From Gloeomargarita sp. SRBZ-1_bins_9 (GTDB taxonomy: Bacteria > Cyanobacteriota > Cyanobacteriia > Gloeomargaritales > Gloeomargaritaceae), in NCBI GenBank assembly GCA_039794565.1, contig JAUQVX010000001.1:62001-126000 (forward strand): a stretch of DNA of 64,000 nt. Reading direction: 5' to 3'. The translations under genes and the position numbers were made by a program. The notes beneath the pieces were generated by a model that searched no databases, was not told the DNA's origin, and was given only the letters and a program-made list of their open reading frames with translations. Within the stretch, counting starts at the first letter, position 1. Each line of letters starts with the position of its first letter. Below are positions 7,224 through 27,993 of the stretch, in pieces.

Positions 7224-7308
7224 AAATCCTTACTTGAGCATTGTGGGGACACTCCTGTTATAGGACCCGACCGGTGGCTGCCCCGACGGATTACAGATTT
7301 TTTTCACC

Positions 7309-8313
7309 CTACACCGTGGCCAGGGCCAGCCAGTCCTGGGGCTTGAGGAACTCCTGGGTCAGTTGCGCCTCGGGACTCCCCGGCTCCGGCGTGTAGCAGT
7401 ACTCCCAGCGGGCCAGCGGCGGCATAGACATCAGGATAGATTCAGTGCGCCCGTTGGTTTGTAACCCAAAGATCGTTCCCCGGTCGTAGATGAGATTGAA
7501 CTCCACGTAGCGCCCCCGCCGGTAAAGCTGGAACTGCCGCTCCCGGTCCCCATAGACCATATCCCGGCGCCGTTCCACGATGGGCAAATAGGCCGGCAAG
7601 AACGCCTGGGCGCAACTTTGCACCATGCGGAACACTTCCTCCCAACAACGGGGGGGCAATTCCCCTACTTTGTTGCTGTAGATGGCCGCATTGCCCTGGG
7701 AGTGGTTGCCCCGGTACAGGGGACCAACCCCGTCTTGGTAATCAAAGAAAATCCCACCCACCCCGCGGGTTTCCTGCCGGTGCTTCAAATAGAAGTATTC
7801 ATCACACCAGCGTTTGAACACCGGATAGTATTCGGGGTGATGGGCATCCAGCGCTTCCTTGTGGACCCGGTGAAAATGCACCGCATCCTCCCGGAAGGGG
7901 TAGTAGGGCGTCAAATCCGCGCCCCCGCCAAACCACCACACCGGCCCCGCCTCAAAATAACGATAGTTTAAATGCACCGTGGGGACGTAGGGATTGCGGG
8001 GATGCAATACCAACGACGTTCCTGTGGCGTAAAAAGGATGCCCCTTGGCCTCGGGACGCTGTTCCACAATCGAGGGGGGAAGCTGCTGCCCCCAAACCTC
8101 AGAGAAATTCACCCCCCCCCGCTCCAGGAGTGCGCCACCCTCCATCACCCGTGAGCGACCGCCACCCCCCTCGGGCCGTTCCCAGGTGTCCTCCCGGAAC
8201 TTGGCCTGACCGTCAGCCGCCTCCAAGGCCTGACAAATCTCATCCTGCAACTGCCGCAAAAATTGACTCACCCGTTGCCGGGCATCACTCGGCGGTAACC
8301 CTGCTACTGCCAT
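7309..8313 (-). CDS. hemF: Oxygen-dependent coproporphyrinogen III oxidase
   Basis: 334-residue aerobic coproporphyrinogen III oxidase, which decarboxylates two propionates to give protoporphyrinogen IX for haem and chlorophyll. Family signatures are visible: [38 protein letters not shown], and the [14 protein letters not shown] stretch with the conserved C-terminal Arg-rich segment. A strong GAGGAGGGG ribosome site precedes the ATG. Full family length. It lies downstream of bioB with its own consensus-like promoter in the 81-base gap, and 85 bases ahead of cydA on the same strand. No oxygen-independent HemN homologue is seen in this window. Confidence 0.96.
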
Positions 8314-25796: not shown

Positions 25797-26081
25797 CTAA
25801 AGAACCGAATTGCCCGGAGAGACGCTGGAGGCGGCGAGGGCTGCTGGGGCCAGGTCCCCAACGGACGTCTCGGTTGGCAGGGTCTGGAGATAGCTGAGCA
25901 CGACATCCTGTCCCCGGCGCAGGCGTAAGGTCAAACGCGGAGCCACAGTCGAAGCCACTAGCCGTCCCTGCGGCAGGTCCATCCACACCAAGGTGCCAAA
26001 CACCCGACAGGTGCCCTGCCCGATCGTTGCCAGGGTGACCAGTTCCGCCAGGGTCAGGGGACGGGGTAAAACCACATCCAT
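25797..26081 (-). CDS. Small protein of unknown function in the V4R/Roadblock cassette
   Basis: 94 residues from the ATG at 26081, which has GGGAGGGT 5-7 bases upstream. A 110-residue version could start at ATG 26129, 3 bases after the V4R gene stop, but has no ribosome site. The sequence PLTLAELVTLATIGQGTCRV, then a beta-rich stretch (RLTLRLRRGQDVVLSYL), suggests a small alpha/beta domain. I recognise no family. Its close spacing behind the V4R gene makes co-expression likely. Confidence 0.55.
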   Translation of the reverse strand: MDVVLPRPLTLAELVTLATIGQGTCRVFGTLVWMDLPQGRLVASTVAPRLTLRLRRGQDVVLSYLQTLPTETSVGDLAPAALAASSVSPGNSVL

Positions 26082-26132
26082 CGCCCACCCTCCCCCACAC
26101 TCCCGTCGTTGGAGCAGGTGTAGTTGCATGGC

Positions 26133-27374
26133 TCAGTTGGCTGTGGCAATGAATTCACACCAGGGGTCACCCTTTTCCCGGGCGCGCACCTCCTGGCCCC
26201 GGAAACAGTTGCCCCGCCGGAAGAGATTGTTGTAAAGCGTTTCGTCCAGGGTCGGTTTTTGGGCAATGTGACCCCGATAGACCAGGTTCATCAGGGCCGG
26301 TACGGCACCCTGGGCAAAGAAACAGGCCCCCGTTGCGCTCTGGGGATAGGTAGCCAGGAAGTAGTTGGTCTCGTAGTTGCCGTCAATGACCACCCGACAG
26401 GACTGGTCACTGGCAATTTCTACCAGTTCCCAGCGGCCCCACCCCAGACTGCTGGCGACCGCATAGCCCCCGTGAATCCAGTCTGTGTCGTTTTGGATCA
26501 GGGGCTGCACCAGGCTTTCCCACTCTACCGACGCCATGATGTTGCCGAAGGTATAAAACACGCACACGTGGCCGGATTCCCGCAGCAGTTCGCAGCCGAC
26601 TTCCTCCAGGGCAGGATTCACGGCCCGTAGGGCATCCAGAAACCGGTACTGAATGCGGTTGTAGTAATTCGCCGGCATCCGGGTTAGCAGTACATTAAAC
26701 GCCCGAATCTGCCCCTGCTCATCCCCCGCCAACGGTAAGCCCCACAAGGTTTCATTCAGGGCTTCGTAGTCTACCGAGGTCTTGGCCCGGGCAATGGACG
26801 CCGGTTGGTCAATGATGCGTCCCATACCCGGACTGGGGGTCAGGGGGCGGCGGGTCGCAACCGGTTGCACCCGAATCACACAGTGGTCCCCCCGGGTCAC
26901 CGCCTGGCACTGGGTTTCTTCGGCCTGGTAATCTCCCAGGGACCCATAAATGGCATCTAAGGCCGCTGCAGCATAGCCCACCGCCACGTGGTCAATGGGT
27001 TTGTGCCGCTGAAGGGTTGCCCCATACTTGCCCAGCCACCCTTGCGCGTAGTGGGAATGGCGCAGTTCAATGTCGGCCCCCTGGGGAGAAATGTCCCCGT
27101 CTATTTGCCCAAATCCCAAGAAACTAAACAGTTGCCGGGCCACCTGCCAACGTTGGACCGCCTGGGTGACCCCTAGCTTCCCAAAGGCCCCCTGCAACAG
27201 GCTGAAAAATATCTCCTGGGCTGACTGGCGTAGGATCGTCACCCCGTCGATCCAGGCCGGGTCTTCAATCGTTTGCTGCAAAAAGAGGTTGTAGTGGTGG
27301 CAGTGGAAAATCACCGGTTCGCCAAACAAACCCACCAACTTGCGGGAACGGTCCACAATCAGTTGCTCGAGCAT
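26133..27374 (-). CDS. Double V4R (4-vinyl-reductase-like) domain protein
   Basis: 413 residues built as two V4R-like halves, about 1-175 and 215-405. The first contains FHCHHYNLF near residue 23 and VAVGYAAAALDAIYGSLG. Each half ends in the typical V4R pattern: a CQAVTRGDHCVIRV-like strand pair in the first, GNCFRGQEVRAREKGDPWCEF in two parts in the second. V4R domains bind small ligands in XylR/DmpR-type regulators, occur in BchJ, and share a fold with TRAPP Bet3 subunits. In Synechocystis the photosystem-related slr0144-slr0152 cluster contains single V4R proteins, so a role in chlorophyll or photosystem assembly is a reasonable guess. The GGAGGG ribosome site before ATG 27374 fixes the start. 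Confidence 0.75.
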   Translation of the reverse strand: MLEQLIVDRSRKLVGLFGEPVIFHCHHYNLFLQQTIEDPAWIDGVTILRQSAQEIFFSLLQGAFGKLGVTQAVQRWQVARQLFSFLGFGQIDGDISPQGADIELRHSHYAQGWLGKYGATLQRHKPIDHVAVGYAAAALDAIYGSLGDYQAEETQCQAVTRGDHCVIRVQPVATRRPLTPSPGMGRIIDQPASIARAKTSVDYEALNETLWGLPLAGDEQGQIRAFNVLLTRMPANYYNRIQYRFLDALRAVNPALEEVGCELLRESGHVCVFYTFGNIMASVEWESLVQPLIQNDTDWIHGGYAVASSLGWGRWELVEIASDQSCRVVIDGNYETNYFLATYPQSATGACFFAQGAVPALMNLVYRGHIAQKPTLDETLYNNLFRRGNCFRGQEVRAREKGDPWCEFIATAN

Positions 27375-27393
27375 GGGTTTCCCTCCTGCCGAC

Positions 27394-27993
27394 TTATTCA
27401 ACGGCAATAGGCAGCCGTTCAACCCCCAGTAACTCCTTGACCCCCTGGCTCAGAAGACGTACCTCATTGGCCGTTAAATGTCCCTTGGCCAACTTGTCCG
27501 GGTGCAAACCGGTCTTGAGGGACAAACGCAACAGGACAAAGTTAGGGTCGGGGGCATAGCGCCGGGCGTAGTCCAACAATAACTGGGCCCTGGACTTGAC
27601 CTGGTCGGTGGGGTCCGGCAATAGGGGTTGCGCGTCGATCAGGATGGCTTTTAACCGCTCGGTCACCAGCTTCAGTTCCGTAGTCGCCCGGGTCATCATC
27701 AGGACAAAGTAGGGCGACCGGGGAAACGCTCTCACCAGTAGGCGAATCCGTCCGGACCCCGCCAGGATGTAGTCGGCGGTCGTCTGGGGGTCAAATAGTT
27801 GACAAAACCGTGCATTAGTCCGCACCAGGTCACTGGCATAAGCCCCTAGGGAATGGATATCCGCCACCGCCTCCGGGTCGTAATTGATTTCGGCTAGGGT
27901 CCGGTCATCGGTTGTGCGCCCGATCAATACCGCCAGCAGCCCCGGTAACCCCGCTACATGCTGTTGCAACACGCTCTCTAAACTGCGAGCCAT
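27394..27993 (-). CDS. Roadblock/LC7-like protein paired with V4R
   Basis: 199 residues. The first about 112 follow the Roadblock/LC7 pattern: an N-terminal helix (LESVLQQHVAGLPGLLAVLI), central helix with DIHSLGAYASDLVRT, two strands (IRLLVRAFP, YFVLMMTRA), and a last helix TELKLVTERLKAIL. Such domains dimerise and regulate small GTPases (MglB) or act as scaffolds. The C-terminal 80 residues are helical and unknown. It starts the cassette, 19 bases before the double-V4R gene and divergent from the DUF2358 operon. No MglA-like GTPase is nearby; the only GTPase in the window is Era. Confidence 0.65.
   Translation of the reverse strand: MARSLESVLQQHVAGLPGLLAVLIGRTTDDRTLAEINYDPEAVADIHSLGAYASDLVRTNARFCQLFDPQTTADYILAGSGRIRLLVRAFPRSPYFVLMMTRATTELKLVTERLKAILIDAQPLLPDPTDQVKSRAQLLLDYARRYAPDPNFVLLRLSLKTGLHPDKLAKGHLTANEVRLLSQGVKELLGVERLPIAVE

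Follow-up and report, generated by a model that had tools for sequence, protein, structure and literature searches.

A tandem V4R protein and two small partners form a patchily distributed gene set that is joined to a Roadblock domain in hot-spring cyanobacteria

Three intact minus-strand open reading frames (ORFs) at positions 25797–27993 of the window, the 64,000-nt stretch of a Gloeomargarita genome that was analysed as a whole, encode a Roadblock protein whose C-terminal part is a helical module (A), a protein of two tandem V4R units (B) and a small protein (C). A, B and C constitute an undescribed set of small proteins that is patchily distributed across bacteria and archaea; the trio found here is its hot-spring cyanobacterial form, and A-B-C, rather than the Roadblock domain, is the conserved unit. 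In the best reading, to which we assign a probability of roughly 0.45, a twin-V4R core binding a metal, a redox cofactor or a ligand would act together with two small partners and be coupled in this genome to a Roadblock platform.

The three adjacent genes (Table 1) are separated by 19 bases (gene 1 to gene 2) and 3 bases (gene 2 to gene 3), which confirms the arrangement and the gaps given in a preliminary description made from the letters of this DNA. The mechanically called ORF of gene 2 begins earlier, with a TTG at 27422; the 413-aa start, an ATG at 27374, was preferred because relatives support it. In Thermosynechococcus and Thermostichus-type genomes the trio was kept in the same order and on the same strand while the flanking genes were unrelated, so that the adjacency holds in related genomes, and the counterparts of genes 1, 2 and 3 shared 56–61%, 66–68% and 44–46% identity with those of the window, respectively. 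This recurrence amid unrelated flanks indicates that the three are real genes rather than chance ORFs, including the small third one noticed earlier, which also recurs beside B in other genomes. A search for a sigma-70-type promoter upstream of the trio gave no match.

Table 1. Position and content of the three genes and of the part of gene 1 that encodes module A
Feature	Coordinates	Strand	Description
Gene 1 (P0001, 199 aa)	27394..27993	-	Roadblock/LC7 (~residues 1-120) and helical module A (~135-199)
Module A coding part of gene 1 (C-terminal)	27394..27603	-	Consensus RL.LK.G...AA.E.LG; iterated HMM, alignment
Gene 2 (P0002 / B, 413 aa)	26133..27374	-	Tandem V4R; FHCHHYN, H108, H269, C271, Y334/E335 conserved
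Gene 3 (P0003 / C, 110 aa)	25797..26129	-	Small protein with invariant cysteine 11

The product of gene 1 had no Pfam match at all, Robl_LC7 included, because its sequence is too divergent; even its homologue at locus L028 reached 17.8 bits to Robl_LC7, for which the cut-off is 23. In the AlphaFold model (five-row alignment, mean pLDDT 75.5), residues 1–120 adopt the Roadblock topology of a helix, two strands, a helix, three strands and a helix, and 62 PDB chains matched this model at E ≤ 1e-3 (best E 3e-5), the 50 matches listed being Ragulator, MP1/p14, MglB, MglC, Thorarchaeal and Streptomyces Roadblock proteins as well as one outer-arm dynein chain. The earlier naming of a Roadblock-like protein is thus upheld by fold and by structure matches, although the Pfam profile finds nothing. 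In predicted fold and topology the protein resembles the Roadblock/LC7 members MglB, LAMTOR/Ragulator and CvnB, from which it differs in lying below Pfam detection, in carrying the C-terminal module A and in having no adjoining GTPase gene. A Synechococcus MAG carries two tandem copies of the Roadblock-A gene upstream of B (L025:6157-6768 and 7297-7908). At two Thermostichus-type loci, a further small protein weakly similar to LAMTOR5 (L016:5548-5925 and L025:4193-4570) is encoded ~2 kb and 3.4 kb upstream of B, respectively.

The last ~65 residues of the gene 1 protein form a separate helical module in the model, and this module A is usually a stand-alone protein of ~70 residues beside B outside the cyanobacteria; in a genome from another class of the same phylum (G004), a 68-residue protein directly upstream of B resembles it. 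By iterated HMM searching, 34 ORFs homologous to A were found in 33 of the 83 loci with B, and the C family, of ~100 residues, was found beside B in 31 of them. Every A and C homologue lies on the strand of B, mostly no more than tens of bases away. A protein upstream of B in Bacteroidota was linked to A by hhalign (E 7.6e-10), and fusions were observed: A and B are joined in one ORF in a Cytophagales genome (L036), A sits on a HAMP membrane protein in a haloarchaeon (L056), and the Roadblock-A fusion occurs in hot-spring cyanobacteria and in one MAG (L028). Neither A nor C belongs to a Pfam family, and PDB profile searches with each gave no usable match; cysteine 11 of C was invariant in all 24 aligned relatives. 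Two gammaproteobacterial small proteins, T and D, were considered as homologues of C and A, and as their profile comparison was not significant they are taken merely as positional counterparts. The conserved order and the fusions make an A-B-C complex the simplest reading: the products of the trio would form one complex, whose core in bacteria and archaea would consist of the tandem V4R protein B, a helical docking module A and the cysteine-bearing partner C.

The assignment of B to the V4R fold rests on several comparisons. The N-terminal half of the window protein scored 23.4 bits against Pfam V4R (PF02830), below the 31-bit cut-off, and 14 of 33 B-family members matched the V4R profile, the best at 4e-15, with an NCBIfam match to MsvR in 3 of the 33. 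Foldseek retrieved PoxR/MopR sensor domains and Bet3, the B profile gave a weak PDB match to MJ1460 (E 0.003), and the structural neighbours PoxR, H-NOX and CesD named in a study of Asgard V4R proteins (PMC10933270) were likewise returned by Foldseek for B. The AlphaFold model of B was built from a shallow six-row alignment (mean pLDDT 54.5, weak) and predates the wider family. The two halves of B are homologous to each other (hhalign E 1.6e-10), and they are encoded by two adjacent genes in Polyangium, Sericytochromatia and some archaea. Fold, family-wide profile matches and homologous halves therefore agree with the tandem V4R identity proposed earlier, with the window protein alone falling below the cut-off. 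B shares its fold and its family-wide Pfam matches with the V4R proteins PoxR/MopR (sensor domains), MsvR, MJ1460 and TRAPPC3/Bet3; unlike these, it has two V4R units per chain (or two genes in some lineages), its own His/Cys motifs and no conserved zinc ligands. Its related halves would probably pack as a pseudo-dimer, in the manner of V4R/TRAPPC3 dimers.

The sequence FHCHHYN occupies residues 23–29 of B, and FHC.HYN was near-invariant across 83 sequences, a conservation that is partly circular because relatives were recruited through FHC[HN]HYN or [FY]LQQTIED. Outside these recruitment motifs, H108, C271 and E335 were conserved in 100% of the 83 sequences, T275 and W285 in 99–100% and H269 in 96%, and the His/Cys positions were retained across domains of life. 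The suggestion that the His-rich motif could bind metal has thereby gained backing as a possible metal or cofactor role, from FHC.HYN throughout the family together with H108, H269, C271 and E335. The classical V4R zinc/cysteine site (E-x2-C...C) is not conserved (C165 in 31/83, C406 in 24/83, other ligand columns variable), which does not exclude V4R membership, since eukaryotic TRAPPC3 has lost the site too (PMC10933270). B would most likely bind a metal, a redox cofactor or a small molecule via its conserved His/Cys residues.

Most B loci have no Roadblock gene nearby, and the Roadblock protein is therefore not part of the universal core. Nevertheless, separate Roadblock genes were found near B in about five lineages, namely L071, L080/L084, L079/L083, L098 and L028, compared with about 0.6 expected in the 1.0 Mb examined, given a density of 0.58 Roadblock genes per Mb across twelve host genomes; the corresponding rough Poisson P of about 3e-4 is indicative, because the pattern was noticed before testing and the lineages are perhaps not fully independent. 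In an Acidithiobacillus MAG (L071:6722-9822), an ODP-family di-iron-type protein, a Roadblock protein and B follow in close succession, the longest B frame overlapping the Roadblock gene by 4 bases. The Roadblock gene lies ~1.5 kb upstream of B in Halothiobacillus (L080/L084), near B on the opposite strand in Acidocella (L079/L083), and after an additional B that is strongly diverged and split into two genes at L098:3789-5379 (minus strand). A 149-aa, possibly V4R-like protein follows B at L071, and a periplasmic-binding-like protein is encoded near B in the Halothiobacillus and Acidocella loci (L079, L080, L083 and L084).

Single signalling-type neighbours of B were an MCP (L090), a CheB-like tail (L031), a receiver-like domain (L030), a kinase (L042) and a GAF-SpoIIE protein (L038). 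When 148 proteins near B were compared with 148 far from it, no enrichment was found for response regulators (2 near, 3 far) or for histidine-kinase-type ATPase domains (4 near, 3 far). A general chemotaxis or two-component association, as these single neighbours had suggested, was therefore removed from consideration.

What B does with a bound group can be read in two main ways. Among the V4R relatives, those of established function (PoxR/MopR and MsvR) sense ligands or redox conditions, and it is these relatives together with the Roadblock and HAMP fusions that favour a sensor or regulator role. Because A is fused to Roadblock in hot-spring cyanobacteria, a Roadblock dimer would there receive the signal set by the ligand or redox state of B. 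Alternatively, B could form the core of an undescribed enzyme that depends on a metal or a thiol; A and C would then be its small subunits, and Roadblock a cyanobacterial addition that serves only structure or dimerisation. We regard this enzyme as a serious, if on balance unlikely, alternative: the conserved His/Cys and Trp/Glu residues of B resemble a catalytic or cofactor site more than a variable sensor pocket, the invariant cysteine of C and the class V aminotransferase (cysteine desulfurase family) that follows or is fused to C at L021/L070, L057 and L059 are in keeping with it, and so is the lack of enrichment of general signalling genes near B. However, the aminotransferase link is limited to few lineages, and the recurrent Roadblock neighbours, the fusions of A to Roadblock and HAMP and the sensor functions of the V4R relatives point to regulation.

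If the sensor reading is followed downstream, the Roadblock dimer could act on a GTPase encoded elsewhere. As the preliminary description had correctly noted, no GTPase adjoins the trio, and no small GTPase gene was found in or beside any cyanobacterial trio examined. At another locus of this genome (C1:315.5-321.0 kb, L122), genes for a Roadblock protein, a small GTPase, DUF4388 and hemerythrin lie together, with corresponding loci at L123 and L124 and an adjoining globin-like gene in G089 and G177; its GTPase, at about C1:318 kb, is a possible candidate partner in trans. PATAN-domain and MglB genes are known to be associated (PMC4316618). A direct MglAB-type operon was rejected, given that no GTPase adjoins and that the GTPase-linked Roadblock lies at a different locus.

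In TRAPP, a subunit of V4R fold (TRAPPC3) occurs together with longin subunits, and both kinds, as well as Roadblock proteins, are present in Asgard archaea (PMC10933270). The trio resembles these systems in pairing a V4R-fold protein with a Roadblock/longin-fold partner, a likeness at the level of co-occurring folds; unlike TRAPP, the cassette has no Rab-like GTPase, its V4R is tandem and it includes the extra parts A and C. This composition of TRAPP, along with the Roadblock-linked GTPase present in these genomes, would suit a bacterial TRAPP/MglB-like module in which a Roadblock dimer and the V4R protein serve as a GEF/GAP platform for an MglA/Rup-type GTPase, but we consider such a module decidedly improbable: GTPase genes are missing from the cyanobacterial trios, in these genomes the GTPase already has a Roadblock protein of its own beside it, and most B loci have no Roadblock. 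A more speculative extension of the sensor reading, which we hold to be unlikely, is that A-B-C could be a twin-V4R pseudo-dimer complex with its own metal or redox centre, repeatedly wired to Roadblock (longin-related) platforms, and hence a prokaryotic counterpart of the V4R-plus-longin arrangement of TRAPP that would serve redox or ligand signalling, not membrane traffic. The 464-aa neighbours of B in archaea (L076 and L094) were also considered as longin-like, a reading that was dropped because neither Pfam nor PDB comparisons supported it.

In the open-licence PMC literature we found no description of a bacterial Roadblock-V4R pairing, which may exist in other literature; in the papers covered, the two folds were treated together for archaea only, in the Asgard proteins (PMC10933270). 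With its own His/Cys positions, and with two of its four modules (A and C) outside any Pfam family, the bacterial pairing offers a small testable system for the coupling of a V4R ligand pocket to a Roadblock scaffold, a question that also bears on the origin of TRAPP, and the Thermosynechococcus homologues occur in culturable strains.

The preliminary description had proposed a role in chlorophyll or photosystem assembly, and the distribution of B speaks against it. In a profile search, strong matches (E < 1e-80) were found in 15 of the 390 Cyanobacteriia genomes, all within three genera: that of the window (3/7 genomes), Thermosynechococcus (8/11) and Thermostichus (4/6). In 18 further Cyanobacteriia genomes only weak matches to single V4R-like stretches were found (E 2e-8 to 1e-3). 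B is thus missing from nearly all Cyanobacteriia, so that it does not match photosystem genes in phyletic pattern, and it is present in non-photosynthetic bacteria and archaea, which also argues against a BchJ or 4-vinyl reductase-type role in chlorophyll synthesis. In addition, an slr0144-slr0149-type cluster with two V4R proteins, a ferredoxin-like protein and two globin-like proteins lies on contig C13 of this genome, away from the trio (L023:7686-10787). BLASTP of the 413-aa B against the V4R proteins of this cluster gave no significant similarity, and the B profile scored only 12.7 bits. The trio shares with the slr0144-slr0149 V4R/Fe-S/globin (BBAG) cluster (PMC10151467, PMC13326532) the presence of two V4R units in cyanobacteria, but differs from it in V4R families, partners and locus, and does not have the V4R pair, Fe-S protein and BBAG globin that define that cluster. 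A role in chlorophyll or photosystem assembly comparable to that of BchJ or of the V4R proteins of slr0144-slr0152, to which the V4R fold and the cyanobacterial hosts had pointed, is accordingly very improbable, and a misleading interpretation of the trio is removed.

Thermosynechococcus and Thermostichus are established hot-spring lineages, and the Gloeomargarita-type genomes with the trio probably represent another. Named relatives of the window's B included those from Gloeomargarita sp. SKYG116 (85% identity) and from Thermosynechococcus and Synechococcus MAGs. Between a Thermostichus-type (G177) and a Thermosynechococcus-type genome (G089), B was 79% identical and GlmS 48%, compared with 68% and 65% between the window and G089. 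With B identity far above GlmS identity in the former pair, horizontal transfer is indicated on the single marker GlmS, and hot-spring cyanobacteria seem to have exchanged the V4R gene. In the B tree, the cyanobacterial sequences grouped with that of L028, from a MAG titled Thermus/Deinococcus, whose locus encodes, besides Roadblock-A, B and C, a further Roadblock-like protein and one similar to DUF4388.
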